A stretch of 64,000 bases of DNA from Lacimicrobium alkaliphilum. Its GTDB lineage: Bacteria; Pseudomonadota; Gammaproteobacteria; Enterobacterales; Alteromonadaceae. Position 1 is the first letter of the stretch. Every line of letters begins with the position of its first letter. This document shows, one piece after another, positions 18,855-37,552 of the stretch. The notes beneath the pieces are model-generated. The model was not told the origin of the DNA and ran no database searches. It worked only from the letters and a program-made list of their open reading frames with translations. Location: assembly GCF_002591895.1 (NCBI RefSeq), contig NZ_NISX01000003.1, positions 79,732 to 143,731 of the forward strand, given 5' to 3'. The position numbers and the translations under genes were made by a program.

Positions 18855-18857
18855 TAT

Positions 18858-18874: not shown

Positions 18875-18882
18875 ACAAGGTT

Positions 18883-20205: not shown

Positions 20206-21745
20206 CACGCAGTTACCCAGATCAAAGCCTCGTCAAAGTAGTAATTACCGGGTGTCAAAGATGGGCTACGAGTTTGACATCAATTCAGACAAGTGGAAGT
20301 TAAACAGCGACATAACGTTTAAGCTGAACGCCTTTGATGTTCTCGAACCGAATACAAGGAAGGGCTTCCGTTTAGCGCTGAGCAGATATGCGGAAGAGCT
20401 TGCTGGTAAAACCACCCAGGGCATCGTGTCATATTTGAAAGAGTACATGAAAGTGACTGGTGAAAGAGCTGTTTCGGTTAATGGTCTGAGTAATTATCGA
20501 TCCACTCTGAAAGGAGATACGGAATCTCACCTCGGAGCCCTTCGGGCATTTTTTTACGCTTGGCATGACTGGGAATTTCCAGGCGTCTCCAAGGAAGTTG
20601 TCGACTACCTCGAATCGCTGACGTTGAAAGGTATTGTTAAGGGAAAAGCTGTTAAGGGGCGCTGCCCATATAGTGGAGCATACACACCTAACGAGCAAGT
20701 GGCGCTTATAGAGTGGGTATCAGGTGCATTTAGTAAAGGCACCATATCACTGACCCAATACGCTTTATTTCTCTCCCTCATGATGACTGGTAGAAGAGCA
20801 GTTCAGATTCGAGCACTTACCATTGGTGACATCGTAGTTAGAGAGTCAAAGGATAAAACTCAGTATTTCTTAAATGTACCAAGAGTTAAGCAAAAAACGA
20901 GTGAGTTTCGCGAGGAGTTCCGGTTAATTCCGATTACTGATGATTTGTACTGGATTCTAAAAAACCAAGCAGATGCTTCAGTTAAGCGAGTTGAAACTAA
21001 ACTTGGTCAAAAGTTGCCTGAGCCGGACAAGAGAAGCTTACCGCTATTTCTTGACACGAAAATTTTTAATGGACTTACTTCTTTAGAGCATCTGCGTTCT
21101 GAACAGGGATATAAGCAAGACTACTTGTTCATGACAGCCAGCGAATGTGGTGGTGAGATACGTAAGTTATCAATAGCAAACCAAGCGATCTCAGAGCGGA
21201 CAGGAGAGTATATACACATTACCTCCAGGCGGTTTCGATATACCAAAGGAACAAACTTTTCGCGACGAGGTGTCCACGGAATAGTGTTAGCAGAAGCGCT
21301 AGATCACTCGGATAAACAGCATGTCGGAGTATATGTGGAAAACACAGTGGAAACTGCGGAAGCTATTGACGAAGTCATGGCTCCTTTCCTGGCGCATCTT
21401 GCGCAAGCGTTTCAGGGAGATTTAATTAACTCCGAAAGGGATGCAATCCGAGCAGCTGATCCACGAAGCCGGATTAGAAATAACAGGGAAAACGCGATAG
21501 GAAGCTGCGGCACAAGTAGTTTTTGCGCGTCGGGATTTCGCGCATGTTACACATGCGTGAATTTTCAGCCCTGGCGTGATGGTCCGCATAAGGAGGTGCG
21601 AGACGATCTTATCAAAGAACGAATGCACCAAAGAGAAAATCAAGTTTCTGAGTTTGTGATTCAGTCCACAGACAGATTACTGATCGCTGTTGAACAAGTT
21701 ATTTTAATGTGTGACGCGAAGCAAGGAGAGCTAACTCATGAGTAA
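20192..21745 (+). CDS. Tyrosine recombinase 2 of the island (GinB-like)
   Basis: This 517-residue integrase-family protein has the motif MMTGRRAVQIRALT for the first catalytic Arg (about residue 201), HITSRRFRYTKGT for box II (the usual first His of HxxR appears as Arg), LDHSDKQHVGVY for the later His and the Tyr nucleophile (about residue 381). A C-terminal cysteine cluster (CGTSSFCASGFRACYTC) may bind zinc. ATG 20192 follows AAAGGGA and lies inside the end of the preceding gene; a TTG at 20186 is possible. Part of the three-recombinase operon. Confidence 0.85.
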   Translation: MRANNTQLPRSKPRQSSNYRVSKMGYEFDINSDKWKLNSDITFKLNAFDVLEPNTRKGFRLALSRYAEELAGKTTQGIVSYLKEYMKVTGERAVSVNGLSNYRSTLKGDTESHLGALRAFFYAWHDWEFPGVSKEVVDYLESLTLKGIVKGKAVKGRCPYSGAYTPNEQVALIEWVSGAFSKGTISLTQYALFLSLMMTGRRAVQIRALTIGDIVVRESKDKTQYFLNVPRVKQKTSEFREEFRLIPITDDLYWILKNQADASVKRVETKLGQKLPEPDKRSLPLFLDTKIFNGLTSLEHLRSEQGYKQDYLFMTASECGGEIRKLSIANQAISERTGEYIHITSRRFRYTKGTNFSRRGVHGIVLAEALDHSDKQHVGVYVENTVETAEAIDEVMAPFLAHLAQAFQGDLINSERDAIRAADPRSRIRNNRENAIGSCGTSSFCASGFRACYTCVNFQPWRDGPHKEVRDDLIKERMHQRENQVSEFVIQSTDRLLIAVEQVILMCDAKQGELTHE

Positions 21746-23843
21746 CGTTGTATTCTTTCAGCCAAAGGTGGAGTTGACCGCAGAGCAGAACCTTAGTGAC
21801 TTTATAGCTCATTGCCAGAATAATCTTACCCTTTACGAAGACCAAGGTGGGTTTAGTGTTAATCGGTGGAGGTATAACTGCGGGCGTAAGGAACACACCA
21901 TGGTGTTCTCAAGGTACCGTGAGAAAGGGAGTAGCAACTATTCCGATGACCCTATGGATGAACCCTTTTTATCTTTTGCTAAGTCCTACGTGCGTTATCG
22001 TCAAAGCGAAAGGCAAGTAACGAGCATTGGTGACAAAACGGCCATACTGCGTACGTTGCATGATGCTCTGATTAACATTCATGGTGAAGCAAACATCTTA
22101 TTAATTGACGGTCTGGTTCAGACTGAGGTTTATGACCTGTTCAATAAGCGATTCCCCAAGTCACCAAAGCTGTTCAGGTTTGGTGGGCAGTTGGTTTTAC
22201 TCTACGAATTTTTGATTGCCAAAGGGATCGCTCAAACACTCCCACAATGGAGCAATCCATGGCGACGGCCACAAGCCAAAGCAGAGAGAACAGATAAAGA
22301 GTCGCAAAAGTGGCAGATGGAACGGTGCCCGAGCCAGCATCAAATGCTCTCATTAGCTGACTGCTTTGCGAAAGCTGAAACACCCCAAGATCGGTATTGG
22401 TCGAGTGTTTTGTCTTTACTAATGTTTGCTCCTGGACGGGCTGGAGAACTTGCCTTTTTAACAGTTGACAGTTTGCATGAAGAAGAAGGTCGTTTAGGAG
22501 TCCGCTGGTACGGTGAGAAAGGTTTCCAAGATTCTTTAAAGTGGGTGCCAAGGCATCTTGAAATGACTGTTAGAGAAGCTTTCGCAAGACTTTTAAAGAT
22601 TGGGGCTCCGGCACGAAAGGCAGCTAAATTTGCTCATGATAATCCGGGTAAGTTCTATCGACATGAGGGATGTATAACGCCAGATGATTTCCCGGAGAAT
22701 AAAGAAATGAATGCGTTGGAGTTTGCCCACGCGATGAACTTTACCTCTGCAACAATTCAGAGGATGAAGGAAAAATATGCAAAGTTTGATACTCAAGGCC
22801 CGTGGAACGTCCTAAATGCACACCAATCGAAATGGCTCCAAAAGCTGCGTAGCGAGGGAGCGACGTATGCTAATTTGGCCGAGTATGTAGTCAGCCAATA
22901 TAAGAAGGAGGAATGGCCAAATTTGCCTAAAATTGGCAGACCGGTCTGGGAGTCTCTGCTCCTTATTCGAGAGAATGAATTCCACGCGGAATTTGAGCCA
23001 AAGGGGTTTAGTTGGTTGATCCCGGATGTGAATCGCTTAAATGACCAGTTGTCCCAACGTCCTATGAAAAACACAATACCTACAATTTTTCAGCGCGTCG
23101 GCATAAAGGATGAGGATGGCTCTGAGATCTCAATGACATCACATCAACTGAGGGTTTGGTTATCTACTTGTGCAGAGAGGGGTGGAATGGACTCCTGGAA
23201 GCTCGCGCAGTGGGCTGGTCGAGCGAATATAAACGACAACAGACATTATGATTTACGCACACAGGACGAACGAGAAGAGCAGACGATGTCCCTTTTGGGG
23301 ATAGAGAAGCGTCCCACTCCTCTGGAGGCACTGAAACACAGGTTACCAGTATCTTACGAGGATCTTGGGCTAGATCGGATTGGGATCGCCGATGTTACAG
23401 AATATGGCATGTGTACTCATGATTATGCAATGTCTCCCTGTACCAAGGGTGGTGAGTGTATGACGTGCAAAGAACATGTTTGCATAAAAGGAATGCCAAA
23501 GACGCTGTCACGAATCAAACAACTTGAGGAAATGGTTGAATCTCAGCTAACCAAAGCCCAAAAGGATGCGAAGAATGGTGACTTTGGCGCAGACCGATGG
23601 GAAACCCACCTCGGTTGGAAATTGTCACACATCCGAACTCAACGGTTGAGGATGGAAGATAAAAACATCCCTGATGGCGCATTGCTCTGGATCCCTAAAA
23701 GCCACGATCCAAGCCCGATTGAACGCTCCTTGCAGCAGCGAGGGTTCCAAACAGAAAACACATCAGAGTCTAAGTTGAAAGCTGCTCCCACTACCCATGA
23801 TGATAAGACCGTTAAGTATTTATTAGGAATTCCAGATGCCTAG
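21738..23843 (+). CDS. Tyrosine recombinase 3 of the island (GinC-like)
   Basis: The largest of the trio at 701 residues. Catalytic motifs: APGRAGELAF (R234), SHQLRVW (H469, R472), QWAGRANINDNRHYD with Tyr504 as the likely nucleophile. A cysteine-rich zinc-finger-like block (CTHDYAMSPCTKGGECMTC near 555-575) lies beyond the catalytic domain, and the far C-terminus is charged and helical. The length and Cys block recall TnpB of Tn554 and GinC of GInts. Its start overlaps the stop of recombinase 2 (ATGAGTAA), indicating translational coupling. Confidence 0.86.
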   Translation: MSNVVFFQPKVELTAEQNLSDFIAHCQNNLTLYEDQGGFSVNRWRYNCGRKEHTMVFSRYREKGSSNYSDDPMDEPFLSFAKSYVRYRQSERQVTSIGDKTAILRTLHDALINIHGEANILLIDGLVQTEVYDLFNKRFPKSPKLFRFGGQLVLLYEFLIAKGIAQTLPQWSNPWRRPQAKAERTDKESQKWQMERCPSQHQMLSLADCFAKAETPQDRYWSSVLSLLMFAPGRAGELAFLTVDSLHEEEGRLGVRWYGEKGFQDSLKWVPRHLEMTVREAFARLLKIGAPARKAAKFAHDNPGKFYRHEGCITPDDFPENKEMNALEFAHAMNFTSATIQRMKEKYAKFDTQGPWNVLNAHQSKWLQKLRSEGATYANLAEYVVSQYKKEEWPNLPKIGRPVWESLLLIRENEFHAEFEPKGFSWLIPDVNRLNDQLSQRPMKNTIPTIFQRVGIKDEDGSEISMTSHQLRVWLSTCAERGGMDSWKLAQWAGRANINDNRHYDLRTQDEREEQTMSLLGIEKRPTPLEALKHRLPVSYEDLGLDRIGIADVTEYGMCTHDYAMSPCTKGGECMTCKEHVCIKGMPKTLSRIKQLEEMVESQLTKAQKDAKNGDFGADRWETHLGWKLSHIRTQRLRMEDKNIPDGALLWIPKSHDPSPIERSLQQRGFQTENTSESKLKAAPTTHDDKTVKYLLGIPDA

Positions 23844-24255
23844 AACCGTTGTTACTGAAAAAACAATGCCTTTGATTTTGCATGAGCTTGATAAATGGTC
23901 TGGCAAGCTTACTTGGAATCTGTTCTCTGACAGAGTGGCTAAAATCCTGAATGAGGAGAGCTTGAGCTATCATGCGCTAATCAAGTATGAAGTCATTAAA
24001 GAAGCCTTCACTCTGCGAAAAAAAGCCCTTAAGGAGGTAAAGGAGAATACAGGTCCAACGGATGCCACCGTAGAGATGTTGCTAAAGGAAAATGAGGTAC
24101 TGCGCGCAAAGAACGCACAGTTGGAAAGGCAAGTCACTAATTTGCAGCAGCAGTTCATTCACTGGCAAGCAAATCTGCATAAGATGCCCCATGTAGATAT
24201 TGTAGCGCTCGATTCGAAGCTAAACGCACCCTTGCCCGAGGTAAAGCGTAGATGA
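23836..24255 (+). CDS. Small coiled-coil protein of the recombinase operon (GinD/TnpC-like)
   Basis: This 139-residue protein has an N-terminal helical half, then a long coiled coil (about residues 65-110: heptads through VEMLLKENEVLRAKNAQLER). Its position after three tyrosine recombinases matches GinD of GInts and TnpC of Tn554, small accessory proteins that assist recombination. The start overlaps the end of recombinase 3. It shares an ATGA stop/start overlap with the next gene. Confidence 0.75.
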   Translation: MPRTVVTEKTMPLILHELDKWSGKLTWNLFSDRVAKILNEESLSYHALIKYEVIKEAFTLRKKALKEVKENTGPTDATVEMLLKENEVLRAKNAQLERQVTNLQQQFIHWQANLHKMPHVDIVALDSKLNAPLPEVKRR

Positions 24256-24680
24256 CAAAGCGCAAAAATGGGGCACAGATTGGGCATGAAAATGTCGAGT
24301 TAGTAAAAAGCTGGATTGCCGAACGGAATTTTCACCGCGACTGGCATGAGTATGCCTTCAATAATCGAATCAATCGGAAGGCGCTTGCTCAAGAACTCGA
24401 TTTCGCTCGTTCGGTTTGCGTCCAGAATCATGCCGTGAGGCAGCTCTTGGAGGAGGCTGAAGGGTATTGGTTCCAGAAGAAGGATGAAGATAAAAAGTCT
24501 CATGAAGCCGCAAGAGAGCGAGCGGAGAAAAAGGCGAGCATTCAAAACTCCAATAACAGTGCGTTGATTTCAAGAGTTGCAGAATTGGAAGCGGAGAACA
24601 GGGATTTGAATAACCGTCTGAAAGCATTCGAACTTCAGCAAGCCATGATCGAAGGTGGCTCCCCCGGGTTTAAAATATGA
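24252..24680 (+). CDS. Second small coiled-coil protein of the recombinase operon
   Basis: The 142-residue protein is basic at its N-terminus (MTKRKNGAQIGHENVELVK), has a central HTH-like stretch (NRINRKALAQELDFARSV near residues 39-56), and ends in a coiled coil (KASIQNSNNSALISRVAELE and onward). I do not recognise a family. A DNA-binding or adaptor role in the recombination complex is inferred only from the fold pattern and from ATGA overlaps with the genes on both sides. Confidence 0.68.
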   Translation: MTKRKNGAQIGHENVELVKSWIAERNFHRDWHEYAFNNRINRKALAQELDFARSVCVQNHAVRQLLEEAEGYWFQKKDEDKKSHEAARERAEKKASIQNSNNSALISRVAELEAENRDLNNRLKAFELQQAMIEGGSPGFKI

Positions 24681-26938
24681 GTAACGTCATTCATCTGCGT
24701 CAAAAGGTACAGGTCACCAAAGTTCGAGGGTGGGGCTATGCAACCGTAGTGACGATTAAGGGTGATAATGTCGTTAAACATCGTGACAAAACCCTCGTCG
24801 TCAAATTCCCTAAGGATCACATCGATGCATTAACAGTAGGGTCAATGTGGGAATTGTCGGGGAAAGAGAAGGCCTCTGGATTTAAAGTTAATGGCTTCGA
24901 TATTGTTGAGCACCAGATTGAAGTTGAAACGATTAAATACATTCGGCCTTCCGGGCTGCTTCTTGCACGCTGGATAAGTGCAAACATTAAAGGTATCGGC
25001 GAAGTCATCGCACGACGCTTAGTCAGGCAGAAAAATCTACAAAAAATAATCGCTGAGAAGAATGTAACTGAATTGCGTCGTATACGGGGAATGAATCAGA
25101 CTCGAACCGATAACCTAATAGATCAATGGCCTGACGATAGGCTACACGAAACTATCGAATTCCTTGAGGAACAAAGCTTACCGCTTAGCTTTGGTGAGAA
25201 GCTGGTAGGACTCTTCGCTGACAGAGCGATTGAGCGGGTAAAAGAGCAACCGTTCATACTTGCTGCAATGGGCTTGTCCTTCGAACGCACGATGGAATTC
25301 GTAGGCCGTCTCGGAATTCCTCTTGATGACGAAAAGATCGTGGCTGGCGTTGCTCAATATGTGGCGGTTTCTCATGCTCGAAAATCGGGCTCAACAGTGA
25401 TTGATGACGAGCGAATCCAAAGCTTATGCACAGACATTTTAGCTGCTTTCACCCCTAGCAACGCTGCTGATGTGGCGGTACAGCATGGAATGCTTGTCAA
25501 AACATCAATTGGTTACCAGGTGTATGGAACCGCCTTGATGGAGCAGGCAGTGGCGCACTTTCTTATTAAGTGCCACCGTCGCCCCCGAGGGGCTCACGCG
25601 AAATCAGCGGCATGGGAGAAGAGCCTAAGCAGAGAAAAAGTGGTTGAAGCGTTAACTGAATATGAAGGTTCACTTGATTTTGAATTGACTGGTGAACAGC
25701 GAGTAGCCATTGTGAGCTCCGTAATGGCTCCTGTGAGCTGTATCTCTGGTGGGGCAGGCACTGGGAAGACAACTATCTTAAAAGCCATCCTGGGCGTTTA
25801 CGAGGCTTTAAGTGATGGTGTTCCATGCAGCCAGCTTGCTCTTTCAGGGCGTGCAGCCCAAAGAATGAGCCAAAGTACGGGGAAAGAAGCTAAAACAATA
25901 GCCAAATTTATAGCTGAATGCTTAAAAAGCAAATCCTCAGGTATACCGGCTCACCTCTTATTCGTGATCGACGAAGCATCTATGGTCGATTTACTTTCAA
26001 TGTATAGATTAACCGGGCTACTGCCTCAGGCTACTAGAATTCTTTTTGTCGGTGATACCGCGCAGCTACCACCGGTATCAGCAGGTCTTGTCTTTCACGC
26101 TCTTAAAGATACCGCGATTCCATTTTTCAATTTATCTCAAGTGAAGCGGCAAGGTGAAGAGAGCGGTATTCACACTTTAGCCACTGCTGTTCGTGAGGGT
26201 AAGGCTGTAATGCCTGAGATGGTAAATCGTGTTTTTAAAGATAGTTCTGATTGCATTATCGTGCACGGTTCCGATCTCTCGCGCCTAGTTGATTTCTGGC
26301 AACAGGCAGGAGGCGTTGAAAGTTGCATCGTACTCTCCCCGACCCGAAATGGGCCGCTTGGCGTCAATAGCATCAACGAGGCACTTCAAAATGCCTGCGG
26401 GCTTGACCGCATGGCATTGTCCTACCTCGATCCTTATCATGGCTACATCAAGTGGATCACCCCTTCCGGCGCTATGCTTCTGTTGGGGGATGCTGTTCTA
26501 GTTACCTCGAACAATTACGATGAAGAAGCCAATATACGCAACGGTGATTTGGGAGTCATCACAGAGGTCTACGAATCTTCGCAACCAGGGACCGCCCTGG
26601 GGGTTATGTCGATTAATGGAAAGAACATAGATATAACGCCAAACCTCCTTGAAAAGCTTGAGCTTGGCTATGCTGTGACAATCCACAAATCACAAGGCTC
26701 TCAATGGCCAACCTGCTTTGTTATGTTGCCCGACGATGCTATTAATATGTTCGACCAGACGTTGCTATATACGGCTGTTACAAGACCGGAGCAACGGCTT
26801 GTACTAATGGGTGATGAGCGACTAATAGGCACCGCAGTTGCCCGAGGCGCGATGTCGTCAAGGCGGGTAACCACATTGCGGCAACGCATTTTAGCTCTTA
26901 GCGAAATGGAGTTGGCGCAGGTTGACTTGTTAGCTTAG
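24677..26938 (+). CDS. RecD2-like superfamily 1 helicase
   Basis: The 753-residue protein has an N-terminal RecD2 region with helix-hairpin-helix-like segments (ISANIKGIGEVIARRLV near 96; LRRIRGMNQTRTDNLI) and a C-terminal SF1B helicase core. Walker A is SGGAGTGKTT with Lys364, Walker B is VIDEASMVD, motif III region FVGDTAQLPPV, and the late motifs are VTIHKSQGSQW and YTAVTRPEQRL. RecD2 enzymes unwind DNA 5' to 3'. Here the gene shares an ATGA overlap with the recombinase operon, so it may process DNA during excision or insertion of the island (inference). It is not linked to recB or recC. Confidence 0.88.
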   Translation: MSNVIHLRQKVQVTKVRGWGYATVVTIKGDNVVKHRDKTLVVKFPKDHIDALTVGSMWELSGKEKASGFKVNGFDIVEHQIEVETIKYIRPSGLLLARWISANIKGIGEVIARRLVRQKNLQKIIAEKNVTELRRIRGMNQTRTDNLIDQWPDDRLHETIEFLEEQSLPLSFGEKLVGLFADRAIERVKEQPFILAAMGLSFERTMEFVGRLGIPLDDEKIVAGVAQYVAVSHARKSGSTVIDDERIQSLCTDILAAFTPSNAADVAVQHGMLVKTSIGYQVYGTALMEQAVAHFLIKCHRRPRGAHAKSAAWEKSLSREKVVEALTEYEGSLDFELTGEQRVAIVSSVMAPVSCISGGAGTGKTTILKAILGVYEALSDGVPCSQLALSGRAAQRMSQSTGKEAKTIAKFIAECLKSKSSGIPAHLLFVIDEASMVDLLSMYRLTGLLPQATRILFVGDTAQLPPVSAGLVFHALKDTAIPFFNLSQVKRQGEESGIHTLATAVREGKAVMPEMVNRVFKDSSDCIIVHGSDLSRLVDFWQQAGGVESCIVLSPTRNGPLGVNSINEALQNACGLDRMALSYLDPYHGYIKWITPSGAMLLLGDAVLVTSNNYDEEANIRNGDLGVITEVYESSQPGTALGVMSINGKNIDITPNLLEKLELGYAVTIHKSQGSQWPTCFVMLPDDAINMFDQTLLYTAVTRPEQRLVLMGDERLIGTAVARGAMSSRRVTTLRQRILALSEMELAQVDLLA

Positions 26939-26951
26939 AAAGGAGTTCAAA

Positions 26952-27108
26952 ATGGGCGATGAACTATATGAAAAAAAAGTTAGCACAGAGCCTGCAAGAA
27001 CTGATCAACCAAGTCAACCAGACATGTTCATTTCAAGAACAAGATGTACTTTCCCTCGCACTGATATTTCTGTTAGCGAAAGTGACAAACTTCCAATTTA
27101 AGAAGTAA
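26952..27108 (+). CDS. One of two overlapping small ORFs after the helicase
   Basis: Two frames compete. Frame A, 26952-27101, gives 49 polar residues (begins MGDELYEKKVSTEP) and has a strong AAAGGAG ribosome site 7 bases upstream. Frame B, 26968-27108, gives 46 residues (begins MKKKLAQSLQELINQVNQ) with a hydrophobic amphipathic helix (VLSLALIFLLAKV) and looks more protein-like, but has no clear ribosome site. One is probably real and the other chance, or both are made by coupled re-initiation. No function can be assigned. Confidence 0.45.
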
Positions 27109-27190
27109 CATAATAAAGCTTTTACACAAAACCAACTGCTCAGCCATTATTTCAAATAAATAAGCCAACCAAAGACCTTTAAATCGGAAC

Positions 27191-27219
27191 TTGACACACC
27201 TGAAATCTACACCTAAATA
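27191..27219 (+). promoter_or_regulatory. Promoter of the unknown three-gene operon
   Basis: A perfect TTGACA (27191-27196) with a 17-base spacer precedes TAAATA (27214-27219), 33 bases before the first start codon. The cargo operon can therefore be expressed independently of the recombinase operon. Confidence 0.6.
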
Positions 27220-27252
27220 CTTACTAATGGTGTTTCATAAAGTGGAAAACTC

Positions 27253-27798
27253 ATGATTTCAAGGGTTTTAAGTGCGTATGCATCTGAAGTGCAGTCTGAG
27301 CGATATGTAAACTATCACGAGCTATATCATTCCGAGTTTCTCCGTATACACGATTACGCTCTTAAAAATGGTTGCGCGTGGGAACATGAAGATGTGGTTG
27401 CTGTCACAGAGCGTTATTGCGAAGAACACGCTAAAAGACTCATGCAGAGAACGACTAACTACAGTGAAAGTATTCCGCTTATCGCCGGGCCAAAGGAATT
27501 CTTATTGGACAGAGTTCATGCAGAGTTGAGAGTCGGTGACGAATACGAGATAGAGCTCGTACTTTTAGATTCAATTAAAAAGCCAAGGGGGGTTGTGGGT
27601 CGAATCGATTTAAAATCATATGTCACCGTTGTTGATAGTCACAAGGGGCAATCTGTATTGGACTTTGAAAATGATGAACATTTATTGCTTAAGTGGATGT
27701 CGATTTCAAGAAGTCAGGATCTTAATTTACGGATTCGTGGTGCAATCAGAGTGCTTTCAAGCATTGATTGCATAATACAGGTCCAGGATGAACAGTGA
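27253..27798 (+). CDS. Unknown protein, first gene of orphan operon
   Basis: This 181-residue protein is acidic and soluble, with no signal peptide or membrane segment. The N-terminal half is helical (SEVQSERYVNYHELYHSEFL). The C-terminal half reads as beta-strands (ELRVGDEYEIELVLLDSIKK, then GRIDLKSYVTVVDSHKG), suggesting a small beta domain. I recognise no catalytic motif or family. It overlaps the next gene by four bases (ATGA). The region is visibly AT-rich compared with the host genes, consistent with horizontal origin. Best regarded as an island cargo gene of unknown role. Confidence 0.7.
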   Translation: MISRVLSAYASEVQSERYVNYHELYHSEFLRIHDYALKNGCAWEHEDVVAVTERYCEEHAKRLMQRTTNYSESIPLIAGPKEFLLDRVHAELRVGDEYEIELVLLDSIKKPRGVVGRIDLKSYVTVVDSHKGQSVLDFENDEHLLLKWMSISRSQDLNLRIRGAIRVLSSIDCIIQVQDEQ

Positions 27799-28304
27799 TG
27801 ATTTGCGCAATTGAGTTAGATGCTCTCGAACCAGACCTATCAGAACGATGTGAGCAAGAATTTCAGCGACAAGCTGACTTATATGACGGCGAACTGTTTT
27901 GGTACTTTGATAGTGCATTCGAGAAGGTAGGGCTAATCAGACCGAGTCTAAGTGCGCAGGTTGTGTTGGGTTACTTTGCTAACTGTGGTTGTCCTGTATG
28001 TTGTTTAAGGTTTGGCGCATCGTTACATCCATATATAGACGCGCGTTGGCCGGTTCGTTCGTGCCAAGCAGCTGTATTTTATATGTTAGGAGGATTAGAG
28101 ATTCTCTTAAACTTACAGTACGAAGCTCGCATAAAATCGGCAATACAAGAATTTGAGTCAACAAAAGAGTGCAAAATCTTACTGCATGTCGCAGATCACA
28201 TCATTACTACAAATTCTCTAACAAGCTCTATTTGCCCTGAAATACTCTCGTATATAAACAAACTGCTTTATCAAACCAGAGATAATGGTATTGAGATACA
28301 GTAA
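27795..28304 (+). CDS. Unknown protein with a CGCPVCC motif, second gene of orphan operon
   Basis: This 169-residue protein is mostly helical. A cysteine cluster, NCGCPVCCLRFG near residues 67-78, could be a metal knuckle or redox site; further cysteines are scattered. A hydrophobic stretch (CQAAVFYMLGGLEILLNL near residues 94-111) may be a buried helix. No family is recognised. The start codon overlaps the stop of the first gene (ATGA), and the last base of its stop codon is the first base of the third gene's ATG (TAATG), so the three are translated together and probably form one complex or pathway. Confidence 0.7.
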   Translation: MMICAIELDALEPDLSERCEQEFQRQADLYDGELFWYFDSAFEKVGLIRPSLSAQVVLGYFANCGCPVCCLRFGASLHPYIDARWPVRSCQAAVFYMLGGLEILLNLQYEARIKSAIQEFESTKECKILLHVADHIITTNSLTSSICPEILSYINKLLYQTRDNGIEIQ

Positions 28305-29383
28305 TGGGAAAGACGAGCTTTAATAAACTTGAGCGGGTTTCACGTAAACTGAACTTGAGTGCAAATGATCCTGTTGCGCTAACTGAGCTGATAGTTAATA
28401 GTATTTTGGTAGCTGATTGCTGTGGCATTAATGTTAATGCCATTTCATATAAATTAATTAAAGACGTTTTATTCGCGCTTACAGCGATACAAATTAGCTC
28501 ATCAAACATGTCTTATTACAAGCAGAAATCGCAATATGGAGATATCGTATCCGACGTTGCGGAAAGACTTGGTATTCCAGTTTGTGACTGGGTTACATGC
28601 AAGATCACACGGGCAAAAAGTAAATTAAAAATTGAGCCGAAGCCCTTTGGGCCAATTGCAGCGTTCCAGACACTGTTGGAAAAGCCTTTAGGGACTGAAG
28701 TGATCGATGCGTATTATTGCATTTGGGCAACCAATGGCTGGAATGTGGGAGGCAGGCGTAACTGGATACAACCCGACTTACTCCAGTGGCTCCAACACAA
28801 CAACGTTAGTCCATCAATCCCAGTTAGCCACTGCCGACCTACTGCGCTGAAAAAAGTTTACAAAAGGTTGGCCGACTTGGCTCAGCTAGCTCATACAGAA
28901 CGTCCCATTGATCAGACTCTTAACAGTTGGATTGACAAAAGTGTATTAGACTTTTGCAATTCCGAAATTGGTAGCAAGGTAAAATCGATAGCTTGGTTGC
29001 CTGTATATCCGAACTTACCTCAAATCCAATTCGTTGATGCTATGGAGGCCGAATTTCGTTTGTCACCATATCTGTACTGCCGCCGTTTAGATGACCTCAG
29101 TTCAAAGTTTGGAAAAGCTCACAACTCAGTGCGATTTAAGAATTCAGATGTAGGTATTGTTATTTGTATGAAACGTGAAAATGATGATGTCTTGACCCAA
29201 TGTGAATACATGATTTTGAGCGAATTGTCCGATAGGGGCATCACTCCGCTAGAAGGAGCTCAAGAACGATTCGCAGCGTCGCACATACACTTATGTAAAA
29301 TAGTTTTAGACATATGTGGTTCAACTTCTTTTCTCTGCTCAAGAATAAAGTCGATATCCGCAACAAAGAAGCAATGCAAATAA
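28304..29383 (+). CDS. Unknown protein, third gene of orphan operon
   Basis: This 359-residue soluble protein is the largest of the operon. It is rich in cysteine (about 12) and tryptophan for an island protein. The N-terminus is basic and helical, a central region contains WATNGWNVGGRRNW (near residues 145-158), and the C-terminus is short and basic. I can place no Walker, nuclease, TIR, kinase or methylase motif with confidence. Its stop codon overlaps a 14-bp palindrome (AAAACGACCGTTTT). It precedes a serine recombinase gene. Function unknown; a defence or island-maintenance role is only a guess from location. Confidence 0.7.
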   Translation: MGKTSFNKLERVSRKLNLSANDPVALTELIVNSILVADCCGINVNAISYKLIKDVLFALTAIQISSSNMSYYKQKSQYGDIVSDVAERLGIPVCDWVTCKITRAKSKLKIEPKPFGPIAAFQTLLEKPLGTEVIDAYYCIWATNGWNVGGRRNWIQPDLLQWLQHNNVSPSIPVSHCRPTALKKVYKRLADLAQLAHTERPIDQTLNSWIDKSVLDFCNSEIGSKVKSIAWLPVYPNLPQIQFVDAMEAEFRLSPYLYCRRLDDLSSKFGKAHNSVRFKNSDVGIVICMKRENDDVLTQCEYMILSELSDRGITPLEGAQERFAASHIHLCKIVLDICGSTSFLCSRIKSISATKKQCK

Positions 29384-29493
29384 AACGACCGTTTTCTTTC
29401 ATCCTCATTAGCCTACTAATTTACTTCGATTTTCACTTGCCTAAGTGTAAAAGAATACGTAAAGTAATCAACGTAAAGAAAACGGGCTTTTTA
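29381..29493. repeat. Inverted repeat flanking the upstream region of the serine recombinase
   Basis: TAAAACGACCGTTTTC (29381-29396) and GAAAACGGGCTTTTTA (29478-29493) are inverted copies matching at 14 of 16 positions, about 80 bases apart, and end 3 bases before the recombinase start codon. The left copy is itself a palindrome. This could be the recombination (res-like) site or operator of the recombinase, or part of a weak terminator for the operon upstream. Confidence 0.45.
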
Positions 29494-29496
29494 TTT

Positions 29497-30060
29497 ATGA
29501 AGATTGGCTATGCACGTGTTAGTACCGACGAACAATGCGAAGATGCTCAAATCGATGCGTTGAAGAGGTTTGGCTGTCAGCGTGTATATCGTGAAAAGAT
29601 CTCAGGTAAGAGTGCTAAAAGGCCCGAATTGTCGCGTTTGCTTGATGCATTGCGACCAGGTGATATCGTAGTTGTTCAGCGCCTTGATCGTTTAGGTCGT
29701 TCCTTGTCTGATTTAATCGATTTGCTGAATGGCTTTAAAAACATTGACGTGCAGTTTGTCAGCCTACATGAAAACATCGATACAACCAGTGCATCGGGCG
29801 AACTGATGTTTCATATGATTGGCGCTATTGCTCAGTTTGAACGACGGCTAATCTCCGAGCGAACGAAACTTGGTTTACAAGCTGCAAGGGCCAGGGGGCG
29901 CAAAGGTGGGCGAAAAGCGAAGATGAGCGTCACGGATATTAAAAAAGCGAAAGCCATGTTATTGGACCCTGACATGACAAAAGCGGAAGTGGCAAAACAT
30001 TTCGACGTGAGTCGCCCTACTTTAAACAAAGCGCTTAGTATGTACAGCCAACCACAGTGA
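29497..30060 (+). CDS. Serine recombinase, resolvase/invertase family
   Basis: The 187-residue protein has the full resolvase layout: MKIGYARVSTDEQ with Ser9 as the nucleophile, VVQRLDRLGRSLSDLI with the conserved arginines, GELMFHMIGAIAQFERRLISERT with the E-helix, and a C-terminal helix-turn-helix (MTKAEVAKHFDVSRPTLNKAL). It belongs to the Tn3 resolvase/DNA invertase group. The frame is open to 29314, but the extra 61 residues are non-homologous and ATG 29497 gives the exact family N-terminus. It sits at the junction between the unknown operon and the restriction locus, perhaps a remnant of a second mobile element. Confidence 0.93.
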   Translation: MKIGYARVSTDEQCEDAQIDALKRFGCQRVYREKISGKSAKRPELSRLLDALRPGDIVVVQRLDRLGRSLSDLIDLLNGFKNIDVQFVSLHENIDTTSASGELMFHMIGAIAQFERRLISERTKLGLQAARARGRKGGRKAKMSVTDIKKAKAMLLDPDMTKAEVAKHFDVSRPTLNKALSMYSQPQ

Positions 30061-30079
30061 ATGCTTCAAAGGAGTGATA

Positions 30080-32887
30080 ATGGTCAATCAAAACCCCGAA
30101 CAGCGCGCCCGCGATGAAATAGACGCACTGCTTATCAAAGCCGGTTGGGCAGTACAGGACAAGAAAAAAGTCGATTTTTCTGCAGCACCCGGAATCGCAG
30201 TACGTGAGTATCAGACCGATGTTGGCCCGGCTGATTATGTGTTGTTTGTTGATAAACAGGCGGTAGGGGTCATTGAAGCCAAGCCGGAGTCCTGGGGGGA
30301 GCGCATCACCACCGTTGAGGATCAAGCTCAGGGTTACGCAAACGCCACATTAAAATGGGTCAACAACAGTCAGGCGCTGCGCTTTGTGTATGAGAGCACC
30401 GGCGTGATTACACGATTTACCGATGGCCGCGACCCGTCCCCCCGCTCCCGGGAAGTATTCAATTTTCATCAGCCAGCAACCCTACTCAAATGGCACCGGG
30501 AAAGTAAAAGCCTGCGTGGCCGGTTGCAGGAACTGCCCCCCCTGAAAACCGATGGCTTGCGCGACTGCCAGATCACAGCTATTACGAATCTGGAAGCCTC
30601 CCTGCAAAAAGACAAACCCCGTGCCTTGGTACAAATGGCTACCGGCTCAGGCAAAACCTTTACCGCCATTACCTCAAGCTACCGTCTGTTAAAAGAACCA
30701 GTCAGTGCCAACCGCATCCTGTTTTTGGTGGACACCAAAAACCTCGGCGAACAGGCCGAGCAGGAATTTATGACCTTTTTGCCGAATGACGATAACCGCA
30801 AGTTCACTGAACTTTATGCGGTCCAGAGGCTGCAAAACCAGTATATCGCCAAAGACGCTCAGGTATGTATCAGCACCATCCAGCGCATGTACTCCATCCT
30901 CAAGGATGAACCACTGGACGACGCGCTGGAAGAGCAAAACCCGGCAGAACAAATTACCCGCCCTAAAGAGCCCGTGCCGGTGGCGTACAATGCCCGCATC
31001 CCGCCGGAATTTTTCGATGTGATTATCATCGATGAATGCCACCGCTCTATCTACAACCTGTGGCGGCAGGTACTGGAATACTTCGATGCCTATCTGGTGG
31101 GCTTAACGGCCACACCCGATAACCGCACCTACGGCTTTTTCCGTAAGAACGTGGTCAGCGAATACAATCATGAAAAAGCCGTGGCCGATGGCGTCAACGT
31201 CGGCAATGAAATCTTTGTAATCGAAACCGAAAAGACCAAACAGGGCGGCAAACTGACCGCAAATGAATTAGTAGAAAAACGTGAACGAACAACCCGTCGA
31301 AAACGTTGGGAAACCCAGGATGAAGATCAGGCTTATACCGGCAAACAGCTGGATCGCGACATCGTTAATCCTGACCAGATTCGCAAAGTCATCAGTACCT
31401 TCAGGGATAAACTGCCGATAATATTCCCCGGTCGCAAAGAAATACCCAAAACCCTGATCTTCGCCAAAACCGACAGCCACGCCGATGACATTATTCAAAC
31501 CGTGCGTGAAGAATTTGGTGAAAGTAACCAGTTCTGCAAAAAAGTCACCTACCGGGTCGCCAACGACAAAACCGATGCCGAAGGCAAACTCATCGAAAAA
31601 GGCGAAGACCCAAAATCGGTGCTGGCCCAGTTCCGCATCGACTATTACCCGCGCATCGCCGTTACCGTGGATATGATTGCCACCGGCACAGACGTAAAAG
31701 CACTGGAATGCCTGTTATTTATGCGCGATGTAAAAAGCAAAAACTACTTTGAACAAATGAAGGGCCGGGGCACCCGCACTCTGGACAAAGACAGCCTGCA
31801 AAAAGTTACCCCCTCGGCGCAAAGCGCGAAAACCCATTATGTGATTGTGGATGCCATAGGCGTAACCAAATCCGTAAAAACCGCCAGCCAGCCGCTGATC
31901 ACCAAACCAGGAGTGGCGCTCAAAGATCTGGCCATGGGCGTAATGATGGGTGCCAGCGACAGCGATACCGTGTCATCCCTGGCCGGCCGCCTGGCCCGGC
32001 TGGACAAACAACTCGACGACAAAGAGCGCGCCCGCATTTCAGCAAAGGCAGGCGGTACGCCGCTGCTGAGCATAGTCGGCGAACTGTTTAACGCCATTGA
32101 CGGCGACCGGATTGAGCAAAAAGCGCTGGAGATCACCGGCCTGCCGCAAGGCACAGACCCAGGCGAAACAGCCCGCGATCAGGCCCAGAAACAGCTGGTC
32201 AGCAAGGTGGCCAATGTATTCAACGGCGAACTCATTGAACTTATCGACAGCATTCGCCGCGACAAGGAACAAACCATAGTCCATGATGATCTGGACGCTG
32301 TATTAAAAGCCGAATGGGCCGGTGAAACCACCGAAAACGCCGAAGCACTGACGCAGGAATTTGCCGATTACCTGCAACAGCACGCAGATCAAATAGAAGC
32401 CCTTAACATCTATTTTCATACTCCGGCCCGGCGCTCTGAAGTAACCTACACACAAATCAAAGCCCTGCTAGAACAGCTCAGACAGGAACGGCCCAAACTG
32501 GCCCCGCTGCGCATCTGGCAGGCTTACGCCCATCTGGACAACTATAAGGGCGACAACCCCTTAACCGAACTCACCGCACTGGTAGCCCTGATCCGCCGCG
32601 TTTGTGGCCTCGACAGCACCATTACCCCCTTTAACGCCACAGTGCGTAAAAACTTTCAGCGCTGGATCCTCAGCTATCACGCCGGTGGCAGCAATAAATT
32701 TAACGAGCAACAAATGCAATGGCTGCACCTTATCCGGGACCATATCGCCAGCTCCTTTCACGTTGAGCGGGACGACCTGGAAATGGCCCCTTTCGATGCT
32801 CAGGGCGGCCTGGGCCAAGTGTATCAGCTATTTGGAGAGCGTATGGATTGGGTACTGGATGAACTTAATAGGGAGTTGGTGGCTTGA
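30080..32887 (+). CDS. hsdR: Type I restriction enzyme subunit R
   Basis: HsdR is the motor and nuclease of type I restriction. The 935-residue protein has an N-terminal PD-(D/E)xK nuclease (Asp52 in GPADYVLFV, Glu66-x-Lys68 in GVIEAKPE), an SF2 helicase core with Walker A ATGSGKT (187-193) and a DECH box (318-321), and motif VI KGRGTRTLD. The C-terminal part is of the EcoEI type, which contacts the MTase. ATG 30080 follows AAAGGAG; a GTG two codons upstream overlaps that site. G+C is clearly higher than in the recombinase and orphan operons, so this block has a separate history. The stop overlaps the hsdS start (TGATG). Confidence 0.96.
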   Translation: MVNQNPEQRARDEIDALLIKAGWAVQDKKKVDFSAAPGIAVREYQTDVGPADYVLFVDKQAVGVIEAKPESWGERITTVEDQAQGYANATLKWVNNSQALRFVYESTGVITRFTDGRDPSPRSREVFNFHQPATLLKWHRESKSLRGRLQELPPLKTDGLRDCQITAITNLEASLQKDKPRALVQMATGSGKTFTAITSSYRLLKEPVSANRILFLVDTKNLGEQAEQEFMTFLPNDDNRKFTELYAVQRLQNQYIAKDAQVCISTIQRMYSILKDEPLDDALEEQNPAEQITRPKEPVPVAYNARIPPEFFDVIIIDECHRSIYNLWRQVLEYFDAYLVGLTATPDNRTYGFFRKNVVSEYNHEKAVADGVNVGNEIFVIETEKTKQGGKLTANELVEKRERTTRRKRWETQDEDQAYTGKQLDRDIVNPDQIRKVISTFRDKLPIIFPGRKEIPKTLIFAKTDSHADDIIQTVREEFGESNQFCKKVTYRVANDKTDAEGKLIEKGEDPKSVLAQFRIDYYPRIAVTVDMIATGTDVKALECLLFMRDVKSKNYFEQMKGRGTRTLDKDSLQKVTPSAQSAKTHYVIVDAIGVTKSVKTASQPLITKPGVALKDLAMGVMMGASDSDTVSSLAGRLARLDKQLDDKERARISAKAGGTPLLSIVGELFNAIDGDRIEQKALEITGLPQGTDPGETARDQAQKQLVSKVANVFNGELIELIDSIRRDKEQTIVHDDLDAVLKAEWAGETTENAEALTQEFADYLQQHADQIEALNIYFHTPARRSEVTYTQIKALLEQLRQERPKLAPLRIWQAYAHLDNYKGDNPLTELTALVALIRRVCGLDSTITPFNATVRKNFQRWILSYHAGGSNKFNEQQMQWLHLIRDHIASSFHVERDDLEMAPFDAQGGLGQVYQLFGERMDWVLDELNRELVA

Positions 32888-34476
32888 TGGAAAACCAACT
32901 TCCCGGATCATGGTGTTTGACACCTATCGTCGAGTTATTAGAGGACAATTCGAATGGCAAGCCTTTCCAGCAGGGCTGGAGCCCTCAGTGTCAAAATCAT
33001 CCAGCCGAAAAGAACTCATGGGGCGTACTAAAAACAACCGCAATCCAAGACGGTAAATTTTGGGACCATGAAAACAAAAAGCTTCCAGAAAAAATTGAGC
33101 CAAGACCCCACCTTGAAATTGTTCCAGGCGATATTTTGATGACATGTGCCGGGCCAAGAAATCGGTGCGGAGTGGTCTGTTTTGTAAAGGAAACACGTCC
33201 GAAACTGCTAATGTCTGGCAAAATGTATCGCTTCAGGCCAAATAACCGACTGTTAGACTCCAAATTTCTAGAAGCCTACATCCGTTCACATGAAGCACAA
33301 CTTGCAATTGATGCAATGAAAACAGGCATCAGTGACAGTGGTTTAAATCTAACCCATAGTCGGTTCGCAACCCTAAAAGTGCCATTTGCCCCCTTTAACG
33401 AGCAAAAACGCATCGTTGCCAAAATCGAACAACTCTTCTCCGAGCTGGATAACGGTATTGCCGCACTAAAAACCGCCCGCGAACAGCTAAAAGTATACCG
33501 CCAGGCAGTGCTGAAGAACGCCTTTGAAGGCAGGCTCACTGCCAAATGGCGGGAAGAGAATATAGATAAACTGGAATCGCCTGAACAACTACTCGCCCGC
33601 ATCCAACAGGAACGCGAATCCCGCTATCAACAACAACTGGAAGAGTGGAAAGCCTCAATCAAAGCCTGGGAAGCCGATGGCAAAGAAGGGAAAAAGCCGG
33701 GTAAGCCGAAAGCATTCAAAGCGATGGATACCATTGAAAACGAAGAAATTGAAATTTTGCCGAGGATTCCAAATTGCTGGAAGTATGCGCGCTTAGCAGA
33801 AATTGCATTCATTGGCTCAGGTATGTCAGTGAGCAAAGATAGAAAACTAAATGACCCAGTTGAAGTGCCGTATTTAAGAGTCGCCAATGTTCAACGCGGA
33901 AACCTTATATTAGATGAAATCAAAACTATGTGTATTGAGAAGGATTCTCTTTCAGATCTAACTTTAGAAAAGTGGGATATCTTATTTAATGAAGGAGGGG
34001 ACCGGGATAAGTTAGGCCGAGGATGGATATGGGAAAACCAGATTTCACATTGTATAACACAGAATCATGTATTCAGAGCATCACCAATACTAAAGAGCGA
34101 GTATCACTCTAAGTTCATCTCTCATTGGGGCAACTCATTCGGAAAGGACTATTTCGAGAAAGGAGGAAAACAAACCACAAACTTAGCCTCAATCAACAAG
34201 ACTGTTCTCAGTAACTTCCCTGTACCACTACCTTCCATGGAAGAGCAGCATCAGCTAATAGATATGCTTGATGATATGATGAGCCAGATAGAAGCGATGG
34301 AAACGGAATTTGAAAATGGAATTCAACGAGCCGAAACCCTGCGTCAATCCATCCTGAAAAAAGCCTTCTCCGGCCAGTTGGTGCCACAAGATCCTAACGA
34401 CGAACCTGCCAGCGAACTACTGGCGCGTATCCAGGCAGAAATGACCCAGCGAAAAGGAATAACGAGTAAAAGATGA
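32887..34476 (+). CDS. hsdS: Type I restriction enzyme specificity subunit S
   Basis: HsdS determines the bipartite DNA target of the type I complex. The 529-residue protein has two target-recognition domains (about 1-175 and 270-440), each followed by a conserved helical spacer: NEQKRIVAKIEQLFSELD near 180, and MEEQHQLIDMLDDMMSQIE near 455. Both spacers end in similar LKxAFxGxL segments (LKNAFEGRLT, LKKAFSGQLV), the usual internal repeat. The recognition sequence cannot be read off. It starts in the hsdR stop codon and overlaps the next gene by ATGA. Confidence 0.95.
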   Translation: MENQLPGSWCLTPIVELLEDNSNGKPFQQGWSPQCQNHPAEKNSWGVLKTTAIQDGKFWDHENKKLPEKIEPRPHLEIVPGDILMTCAGPRNRCGVVCFVKETRPKLLMSGKMYRFRPNNRLLDSKFLEAYIRSHEAQLAIDAMKTGISDSGLNLTHSRFATLKVPFAPFNEQKRIVAKIEQLFSELDNGIAALKTAREQLKVYRQAVLKNAFEGRLTAKWREENIDKLESPEQLLARIQQERESRYQQQLEEWKASIKAWEADGKEGKKPGKPKAFKAMDTIENEEIEILPRIPNCWKYARLAEIAFIGSGMSVSKDRKLNDPVEVPYLRVANVQRGNLILDEIKTMCIEKDSLSDLTLEKWDILFNEGGDRDKLGRGWIWENQISHCITQNHVFRASPILKSEYHSKFISHWGNSFGKDYFEKGGKQTTNLASINKTVLSNFPVPLPSMEEQHQLIDMLDDMMSQIEAMETEFENGIQRAETLRQSILKKAFSGQLVPQDPNDEPASELLARIQAEMTQRKGITSKR

Positions 34477-37310
34477 AACATCACTATAAGGGCATGCGTT
34501 GGCTAAAGTGTGACCTTCAAATGCAGACACCTGCTGATTCCCGTCACTGGCAGGGTGATCGCCTCTTGGGTGGTGAAGAGTTGCTTGCTGCCAAGGCGTT
34601 TGCTGAAGCATGCTTTCAAGCTGGGCTGGATATCGTCGGTATAACGGATCACAACTTTCTAAGTAAGGAGTTTATCCCGTATTTAAAAACTGCATTCGAA
34701 GATCTTGAGCGCGAGCATAATCACAGCATCACCCTTTTTCCGGGATTTGAGTTTGAGGCGGCAGGCGTGGGACGCGGCGTGCACGTACTCTGTTTGTTTG
34801 AACCTAGCGCTGATTTGGTCCAGCTTGATGCCATTCTTACAGAATGTGGTGTTACATACCCTAGAGTTGGTTCAGACGGCCAGTTGGCCAAGTCAGACAA
34901 AAATCTCAAAGACATATTGCAGATCGTTCAAGATAAGTATTCTGGCATTGTGATCATGCCTCACGCTATGAGTAACGATGGGATATTCGATAACGAATCT
35001 ATTTCAGACTGGTTACAACAAGACCAATTTACCAATCCCGGACTACTTGCGATTGAAGTGCCCAAACCTGTTAATAAGATGTCAGCAGGTTATCAGCGGT
35101 TACTGAAATCAGGTGACGATTGTCAACCTGGATGGAGGAGAGTTCGCCCCATCGCAACGATAATGTCTTCCGACAATAAGAAGCTAATTGACCTCGACCA
35201 GCACGGGGCACCAACTCCAAACTCGATTGGTTACCGATACTCTTGGATAAAAATGTCGTCTCCTTCAATAGAGTCTCTACGCCAAGCTTTTCTAGATCAT
35301 CAGTCTCGCATTCTCTTACCTGAGAACGTACAGAAAGATGTTCACCCTGAAAATCGCATCCGCCAAGCGATAGTCCATTCTATTTCAGTCAAAAACGTCG
35401 CATTCTTAGATGATCAGGAAATTCATTTTTCACCAAACATGAATTGTGTAATTGGCGGCCGTGGAAGTGGCAAGTCTACCTTGCTTGAGTACCTCCGTAT
35501 TATTTTTAGCAAAGATAAATCGGAGGACATTGATGACGATACTATAAGTCGAATTAAGCGGGTTCGAGATACTCTGAACTCACCAGCCGCAGAGCTTGAA
35601 GTGACGTGGATCAGTGCGGATAACGTGAGAGACCGTATTGTATGGCAAAACGGGCAACCTGCTGTCCATCGTGACGATGACTTATATGACCCTGAAACGT
35701 TCTTCCAGAATTTACCTATCAGTTTTTTCAGCCAACAGCAGCTCAACCGCCTTACCGAGTCGAAAACAGGGGGAGATGGGCAGGTACCTCAGGCACAGCG
35801 TCTGCTAGATCTGATCGACGGGTTCGCAACTAACGAACTATCTGAACTAAGCGAGCAGGAAAGAAAGCTGACGGCCAAGATACAAACATCATTTTCCAAG
35901 CTAAGGCAAGCCAAAGCATTAAAGAAAGATCTTAAAAAGGCTCAACAGGAGTATCAGGAGCTGGATCGTCAGTGGAAAGCGCGAAGTGAGATTCAAGCAG
36001 ATGCCACCCGACACGAGAAACTAACATCAGAAAGTCGTTATCTCGAATCGCTTGAAGGAGAGCCAGGAAAGCGATTCAAAGATGTTGTCGAACTAGCCAA
36101 TGATATAGCCAGCTCCCATGCTTCATTCCAAATTGAAGATGCTCCCCATCAATCCTGGTTTAAACAATTTGATTTAAAAGTCAAACAAGCTAAAGAGAAT
36201 CTTGCAGATCTCATTCGCCAGGCTGTAGAGCAGTACCAGGAAGAAATTGAGTCGCTTACGACAGAAGATCCTACTTGGGGCACGATTGAGCAAGAACTTG
36301 AGCAGGCAGATGCAAATTTCACTCAGGCATGTACACAGAAAGGTCTAACCCCTGATGACGTCGGACACCTAAAAGAGATTGATCAAGCTAAGTCCAAGAA
36401 GCAACAAGAAGTTAATGAGCTTAAGGCTGAAGTCGACAGATTGAAAGAAGAAGCTGGCAATCCAGAGGAGCAGGTGCAGCAACTGCATCTAATTTGGCAA
36501 GAGCAACTCCAAAAACGTATTGAGGCCGCTAATCGTGCAAACAGACTAGCCGTGCAGTCCGAAGAGGGGCGAAAATTCATTGAGGTAAGTGTTCAATACC
36601 AGTTTGACCAGACTAGCTTTTTCGAACTTTGGAATGATTTTGGCCCAAAGGACGGCCGAACCGCTTTAGCTCGGGCATGGTCTGAGATAGGGAGTTTACT
36701 AATAGAAGAATTCCGTCAATTACCTGACAATGAACGAGCTTCCCCATGGGACCTATTAAGAAGTTTTTACGCTAAAAATGATGGTGAGCAGGCACAGCGA
36801 CTTTTCCCAAATCACTCAGAGAACCTCAAACAGTATATTGTGGACAACTTAGAGAGTTGGGATCAACTTCGCTTATCACGAGTAAAAGACGTAGTTGATT
36901 TAAAGCTCTTTCGACCTGATGGCACAGTTGCCGGTAGCATTTCTGAGGGCTCACTGTCCGATGGTCAACGGAATACCGCAGCGCTTGCTTTGTTGCTGGC
37001 TCAAGATGGAGGACCGCTGGTAATAGATCAGCCTGAAGATGAGCTTGATTCAAACTTCGTTTTCAAGGAGCTGATACCAATGCTTCGCAAAGTAAAAGTA
37101 AATCGCCAAATAATTATCGCAACTCACAATGCGAACCTACCTGTCAATGGAGATGCTGAACTGGTATATGCCCTTGAAGCGCGGGACGGTAAAGGTATGC
37201 TCCGGGCAGAAGGAGGACTTGATCATGGAACCGTTACAGCCGCTGTACTCGATATTATGGAAGGCACAGAAGAGGCCTTCCGTCGTCGACGAGAGAAGTA
37301 TCACTTTTGA
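34473..37310 (+). CDS. PHP-domain and ABC-type ATPase protein (TrlF-like)
   Basis: The 945-residue protein has an N-terminal PHP phosphoesterase-like domain (about 1-290; GITDHN near 57-61), then an ABC/SMC-type ATPase split by a long coiled coil (about 430-740). Walker A is GGRGSGKST (328-336), the signature LSDGQ lies near 828, and Walker B is LVIDQPED (849-856), followed by IIIATHNANLP. This is the TrlF-like layout, often found in defence islands. The first PHP motif reads DLQMQT rather than DLHxH, so two expected metal ligands are Gln. It overlaps hsdS by ATGA, so it is translated with the restriction genes. Confidence 0.88.
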   Translation: MKHHYKGMRWLKCDLQMQTPADSRHWQGDRLLGGEELLAAKAFAEACFQAGLDIVGITDHNFLSKEFIPYLKTAFEDLEREHNHSITLFPGFEFEAAGVGRGVHVLCLFEPSADLVQLDAILTECGVTYPRVGSDGQLAKSDKNLKDILQIVQDKYSGIVIMPHAMSNDGIFDNESISDWLQQDQFTNPGLLAIEVPKPVNKMSAGYQRLLKSGDDCQPGWRRVRPIATIMSSDNKKLIDLDQHGAPTPNSIGYRYSWIKMSSPSIESLRQAFLDHQSRILLPENVQKDVHPENRIRQAIVHSISVKNVAFLDDQEIHFSPNMNCVIGGRGSGKSTLLEYLRIIFSKDKSEDIDDDTISRIKRVRDTLNSPAAELEVTWISADNVRDRIVWQNGQPAVHRDDDLYDPETFFQNLPISFFSQQQLNRLTESKTGGDGQVPQAQRLLDLIDGFATNELSELSEQERKLTAKIQTSFSKLRQAKALKKDLKKAQQEYQELDRQWKARSEIQADATRHEKLTSESRYLESLEGEPGKRFKDVVELANDIASSHASFQIEDAPHQSWFKQFDLKVKQAKENLADLIRQAVEQYQEEIESLTTEDPTWGTIEQELEQADANFTQACTQKGLTPDDVGHLKEIDQAKSKKQQEVNELKAEVDRLKEEAGNPEEQVQQLHLIWQEQLQKRIEAANRANRLAVQSEEGRKFIEVSVQYQFDQTSFFELWNDFGPKDGRTALARAWSEIGSLLIEEFRQLPDNERASPWDLLRSFYAKNDGEQAQRLFPNHSENLKQYIVDNLESWDQLRLSRVKDVVDLKLFRPDGTVAGSISEGSLSDGQRNTAALALLLAQDGGPLVIDQPEDELDSNFVFKELIPMLRKVKVNRQIIIATHNANLPVNGDAELVYALEARDGKGMLRAEGGLDHGTVTAAVLDIMEGTEEAFRRRREKYHF

Positions 37311-37444
37311 TTTCCACTATTATGATGTTCAAAAATATCAGCAACCTTATCCACCAGTTCACAGTGGATAGCCAAGGCATTAGATATGGCAACTAAAGCG
37401 CTAAAACTCAAAACGTTACAATAAATGAGAAGTATAAGAGAGAC

Positions 37445-37552
37445 ATGACGGCTGACAACTATGTCAATAAATTGGTATGCAGACTCAGAGAGTTGATCGA
37501 GTCAGCCGAACTCTTGCGGTATAATAACCCCTCAATGAGGAGGAAAATCTGA
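37445..37552 (+). CDS. Possible 35-residue leader peptide before the AAA gene
   Basis: An ORF of 35 codons (begins MTADNYVNKLVCRLREL) ends TGATG on the start codon of the AAA ATPase gene, so the two would be translationally coupled. It contains the AAA gene's ribosome site. There is no recognisable ribosome site of its own, and a TATAAT (37520-37525) lies inside it, so it may be chance. The rest of the 241-base gap 37311-37551 shows nothing else. Confidence 0.3.
   Translation: MTADNYVNKLVCRLRELIESAELLRYNNPSMRRKI
37520..37525 (+). promoter_or_regulatory. Perfect TATAAT -10 before the AAA-subtilase pair
   Basis: TATAAT lies 27 bases before the start codon, ahead of the strong GAGGAGG ribosome site (37536-37543 region). 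A good -35 at normal spacing is not evident (TTGATC at 37493-37498 is 21 bases away), so an activator may be needed. It suggests that AAA, protease and possibly hsdM have their own transcript. Confidence 0.45.

Follow-up and report, generated by a model that had tools for sequence, protein, structure and literature searches.

In a 64,000-nucleotide stretch of Lacimicrobium alkaliphilum DNA (contig NZ_NISX01000003.1, positions 79,732 to 143,731; hereafter the window), a three-gene operon, A-B-C, occupies positions 27253-29383. The operon is cargo of a GInt-type island inserted at the end of ssb, and its third product, protein C, carries a GIY-YIG-like domain in which the key residues are kept. 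With modest confidence we read A-B-C as a regulated nuclease defence module; phage or plasmid DNA would be its target, as judged from the context and the nuclease-like domain. Three unlabelled genes thus become a testable system, with a predicted effector, a named candidate catalytic glutamate (E301) and two partner genes.

Gene order and recurrence of the operon

The initial annotation described three genes on one strand encoding 181, 169 and 359 residues, and the open reading frames (ORFs) agree:

27253..27798, + strand: gene A, 181 amino acids, acidic (net -8); ORF; no library family above cut-off
27795..28304, + strand: gene B, 169 amino acids, acidic (net -9); ORF; GTG start at 27795 or ATG at 27798
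28304..29383, + strand: gene C, 359 amino acids, basic (net +10), predicted nuclease effector; ORF, relatives, alignments
29063..29317, + strand: GIY-YIG-like domain of C, residues ~254-338; hhalign against T5orf172/MUG113 with controls
27191..27219, + strand: promoter-like TTGACA-17-TAAATA before A; unproven, second hexamer 3/6

The TAATG overlap described earlier is present at B/C, but the ATGA overlap is not: the A/B junction reads GTGA from the GTG start or TGATG from the ATG. The AT-rich composition was borne out: the operon has a GC content of 41.3%, the host flanks 49.5% and 50.9%, the recombinase module 45.9% and the restriction-modification (RM) block 49.3%. As for the dedicated promoter that had been proposed, the two hexamers lie where described, but the promoter itself is not established, because TAAATA matches TATAAT at three of six positions and the site was absent from those found by a consensus promoter scan of 26800-30100. 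Promoter-like sites were not in excess in that region (5 found, mean of 7.5 in shuffles).

We searched for relatives of C in genome sets that overlap one another. The single sequence gave three matches in 246 genomes of the family and one, the window itself, in 394 genomes of the order. A profile (A1) found two matches in 369 genomes of the class, namely the window and a weak place in G820 (E 0.0025 over 60 positions) that was dropped; the ORFs there look unrelated. The seven matches of a further profile (A4) comprised full-length proteins in the window, in Colwellia sp. I2R04 (G034) and RSH04 (G173), in the Rheinheimera metagenome-assembled genome UBA8519 (G1005) and in G1018, a distant relative in pieces in G225, and a place in G108, weak at E 9e-4 over 50 positions, which was dropped. 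An additional locus on the Shewanella putrefaciens plasmid CP078040 has a broken C and was the only record found by plasmid searches. Genome contigs yielded no locus with the single C sequence and three with the C profile. Pattern-seeded scans of viral contigs with the C and B profiles found no relative, phage records held no relative of the Rheinheimera C, and E. coli genomes gave no DNA match.

B lay immediately 5' of C in all six loci with a full-length-type C (the window, G034, G173, G1005, G1018 and CP078040). A small gene preceded B in five of five, the Rheinheimera contig starting inside B. This small gene is of one kind in three loci (the window, G034 and G173) and of a second kind, with no detectable kinship, in two; a single family uniting type-1 and type-2 A proteins was unsupported (P 0.29). 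The C proteins were 27-33% identical to that of the window, the type-1 A proteins 28-33%, and the B proteins of these loci 32-42%. The same gene order (A-B-C, or B-C) in other genera at 27-42% identity is, on these comparisons, more than chance. A survey of co-occurrence had been proposed in the initial annotation, with its absence to count against a joint system; the genes were found to recur together. In G225 the C relatives sit at contig ends, so the presence of B could not be judged there; an AbiD/Abi_2 gene (L024 11564-12508) adjoins the distant C relative of this genome.

C was basic in six of six proteins, A acidic in five of five and B acidic in nine of nine. These opposite charges fit a binding of A and B to C and prove nothing; one complex of all three proteins is plausible from the gene arrangement.

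Some neighbouring features of these loci were recorded in passing. Directly 3' of C in the window lies a serine recombinase gene (29314-30060; likelier start the ATG at 29497), and the short direct and inverted repeats between the two (29378-29484) are perhaps a resolution site. The plasmid locus (L004 3843-11963) holds gin-like genes and a RecD2-like gene in fragments, with A and B of the operon open. Near the G1018 operon (L022 19484 to L023 3563) and at the dropped G108 place (L026 246-4271) there is a three-gene set of a metallophosphatase-like gene, an ATPase-like gene and a third gene; by eye the two sets match in length and start alike, and one of the proteins has weak PADLOC matches.

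The GIY-YIG-like domain of protein C

None of the three proteins had been credited with a recognisable catalytic motif. This does not hold for C, which on profile comparison and kept residues ends in a GIY-YIG-like domain. Towards the C terminus the alignments of C contain a conserved block bearing Y-x-Y, K-x-G, R and E, in which Y258, K268, G270, R277 and E301 are invariant in seven of seven rows and Y256 is kept in six. We compared this block by hhalign with a profile of T5orf172 and MUG113 domains taken from 40 and 25 related genomes, eight of these domains being aligned. Both Pfam families belong to the GIY-YIG superfamily. The motif residues stood in register, the ends of the domains aligned, and the comparison scored 28.3 over 83 columns (P 1.8e-4).

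No shuffled control reached this score: 200 query shuffles had a maximum of 16.3 and a mean of 9.9, and 200 target shuffles a maximum of 14.9. The reversed query scored 11.4, the B profile 13.5 and the A profile 8.2. Leave-one-out runs over seven of the eight rows gave 24.5-29.5, and removal of both distant rows gave 24.7. Nuclease activity of C, with DNA as substrate, is a prediction from these alignments.

Two GIY-YIG nucleases have been described in defence. SNIPE, a membrane-bound GIY-YIG nuclease (PMC13190303), would resemble A-B-C in defending by DNA cutting, as proposed here, but is described as a single protein with a transmembrane segment and DUF4041, whereas C is accompanied by A and B. 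Neither C nor its relatives had a Pfam match to DUF4041, and the best 19-residue hydropathy segment of C scored 1.77 (residues 24-42; four relatives, 1.37-1.61). CMoRE, or PD-T4-3 (PMC12923530), likewise uses a GIY-YIG nuclease in defence, but is reported as a single gene with the nuclease domain N-terminal and a modification sensor C-terminal, whereas C has its domain at the C terminus. Judged by these layouts, A-B-C is a member of neither. Literature searches on GIY-YIG, CapW, BrxR and WYL returned no account of the operon among the matches listed, going by titles and abstract beginnings, and none was found that joins GIY-YIG, a three-gene operon and phage defense.

The ssb island and its cargo slot

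The initial annotation had placed the operon as island cargo between a mobile-element module and a restriction/defence block, and comparison with two congeners (G086 and G051) agrees. Synteny with both breaks at 18737/18738, at the end of ssb, and resumes past the RM block at 43248 and 43290. In the congeners a 318-residue gene lies between ssb and a YafY-type regulator, and a remnant of it at about 43000-43161 of the window sets the right end of the island between 42593 and 43000. No exact flanking direct repeat was found; the best imperfect candidate for the island end, at 42718-42735, matches at 12 of 18 positions and is not convincing. The island and its integration module are made up as follows:

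18175..18738, + strand: ssb, host gene; the island starts at its end; Pfam SSB E 4.8e-42; congener synteny stops at 18737/18738
18739..43000, no strand: island, ~24 kb, absent from congeners G086 and G051; ends on the right between 42593 and ~43000
18883..20205, + strand: ginA-like tyrosine recombinase, 440 amino acids; Phage_integrase E 1.5e-14
20186..21745, + strand: ginB-like tyrosine recombinase, 519 amino acids; NF041502 integrase_1, 564 bits, cut-off 350
21738..23843, + strand: ginC-like recombinase relative, 701 amino acids; weak Phage_integrase E 0.004, below cut-off; same-place relatives in other modules
23836..24255, + strand: ginD-like small protein, 139 amino acids; by position; relatives in other modules
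24252..24680, + strand: 142-residue protein, weakly VPA1267 family-like, below cut-off
24677..26938, + strand: RecD2-like helicase, 753 amino acids; TIGR01448 E 6.4e-104, below its cut-off

The module thus follows the GInt plan of three tyrosine recombinase-like genes, the third matching weakly, and a small fourth gene. GInt islands are reported to follow the ginABCD plan, and six of them are described as sitting where an ssb gene ends (PMC5385486). The window shares with them the three tyrosine recombinases and small protein, cargo behind the fourth gene and the ssb-end insertion, a likeness judged by gene plan; it differs in adding the 142-residue protein and the RecD2-like helicase before the cargo. 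No further cargo gene was noted between the module and the operon of G173, and the AraC-type gene that adjoins C there is matched by an ortholog in G1055, with no ssb nearby in the 20 kb examined. The G034 operon lies behind a different gene set, whose first gene alone matches a recombinase model.

Across 242 family genomes integrase_1 was found at 25 places, spread over 23 of the genomes. B was found at three of these places (the window, G173 and G188:C200), and A-B-C as part of the GInt core is accordingly not supported. We examined the strongest ten of the other places. An ORF that looked SSB-like by eye lay immediately 5' of the module in all ten, and in at least six the slot behind the module held defence genes, either known or candidate: GmrSD/NsnA, PD-Lambda-2, type I RM, Avs4 twice and NsnABC. 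The remaining slots were read as ORFs only (G241, G109 and G150) or lie where the contig ends (G034:C14). For E. coli, GInts have been reported to act as defence carriers (PMC10121019).

Farther along the island of the window (30074-42593), PADLOC recognised type I RM genes in the order hsdR, hsdS, hsdM; a Ppl-like ATPase gene and an IetA-IetS pair separate hsdS from hsdM.

Regulation, function and rival readings

Two relatives supply a candidate repressor and a candidate operator. A WYL gene divergent from A is present on the Shewanella plasmid and also in G1018, and both WYL proteins match the sequences of solved CapW/BrxR proteins along most of their length (7qfz, 9c5g, 7tb5, 7tb6 and 7t8k). 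Before A in both loci lies a 25-nucleotide inverted repeat, ATGTCGAATCATTTTGATT(C/T)GACAT, identical at 24 of 25 positions and placed 55 (CP078040) and 40 (G1018) nucleotides upstream of the gene. At up to four mismatches these were the only two sites in 852,296 bases of loci (overlapping loci counted), with 0 and 1 mismatches; 20 mononucleotide shuffles of both loci gave three matches at this threshold. Because the start of the WYL gene lies about 680 nucleotides from the repeat on the plasmid and about 65 in G1018, the repeat appears to stay with A. BrxR is reported to bind inverted repeats and to repress its own defence island (PMC9122601), and by analogy the CapW/BrxR-type protein may bind the 25-nucleotide repeat. 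The two relatives resemble the operons described there in having a divergent regulator and an inverted repeat before A; they differ in controlling genes that belong to neither BREX nor CBASS. Beside the window copy there is no such regulator.

In the defence module that we favour, C would be the effector, its C-terminal domain cutting DNA and its N-terminal two thirds serving in binding or targeting. The small acidic partners A and B, translated from one message with C, would bind the basic C and either keep it inactive or steer it to invading DNA; they may act in sensing or in restraining C. At some loci a CapW/BrxR-type repressor on the inverted repeat before A would hold expression low until damage or infection.

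Several observations weigh against this reading. PADLOC found no family for A, B or C at E values up to 1 and no match for three C relatives, and NCBIfam had none for the three proteins; Pfam and PHROGs gave, at the limits used, only chance-level matches below cut-off. For C and its relatives no Pfam family exceeded its cut-off, and a search of PDB sequences with the C profile returned no match at E up to 10. The hhalign probability for the domain was 49%. Full-length C profiles scored lower, at 27.7 (A6, P 0.0022) and 22.6 (A4, P 0.012), and both of these, like the runs without the window row and without both distant rows, aligned only 72 columns, starting past the first motif. The operon is rare, with at most seven C matches in the 395 family genomes searched with profile A4. 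No CapW-type gene adjoins the window operon, and the 25-nucleotide repeat is missing before A in the window, G034 and G173. Finally, B is present in G104, G014 and G094 with no C relative among the ORFs of the 33-46 kb examined.

The foremost alternative, which we regard as possible though clearly less probable, is that A-B-C serves the mobile element: B, optionally with A and C, would aid excision, integration or the exclusion of a second element, and C would nick attachment or entry DNA. The position of B suggests such a role. In the window (after A), G034, G173 and G188 it comes straight after the integration module, and in G104 and G014 after integrase-like and KfrA-like genes; at several loci the operon closes the module as its final gene set. 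Yet B is at only 3 of 25 integrase_1 places, so the module does without it; the operon accompanies unlike modules, and at two loci it has a CapW-type gene. Moreover, integration and excision are reported to need no more than ginABCD (PMC5385486).

An addiction module, in which a toxic nuclease C and an antitoxin A and/or B keep the island in its host, is unlikely in our estimation. A nuclease-like C, small acidic partners encoded 5' of it, overlapping genes and the mobile-island setting would all suit it. Against this, B occurs without C, C has two partner genes, one of them coming in two unrelated kinds, and the CapW-type repressor of two loci is more usual for defence operons, as reported (PMC9122601). 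That the nuclease call is spurious, C being a DNA-binding or structural protein, is improbable: the Pfam and PDB negatives, the hhalign probability and the P value of the full-length A4 profile speak for it, but 0 of 400 shuffles reached the score, the motifs align in register, all seven rows retain the key residues and the domain end aligns as well.

B itself marks a new family, found in eight of 242 family genomes, the window included; one is a remnant with stops, and the place G225:C3, with three stops, was dropped. B matched one PDB sequence, meaninglessly. The CGCPVCC motif noted earlier in the second protein is present at residues 64-70, but we rejected it as a conserved metal site because only its second cysteine, C66, is invariant over ten relatives. 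Among the loci lacking C, the 5' neighbour of B is a KfrA-like gene in G104 and G014, where the integrase-like genes were recognised by eye only, and an OB/HD-type gene in G094. In G188 a shortened B lies at a contig end behind a module resembling that of the window.

It is tempting, if rather speculative, to see B as the founder of a new adaptor or sensor family. Mobile islands of unlike kinds would set its members right after their integration genes and couple them to exchangeable effectors, among them the GIY-YIG nuclease C, and the island would in this way police competing mobile DNA; A-B-C would then be the first form to be described. As a marker behind several unlike integration modules, B offers a handle for finding further island-borne systems.

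Beside the B of G104 (L046 13622-17541) we observed a Cap4-nuclease/HamA fusion and a DEAD-type helicase, a Hachiman-like pair.
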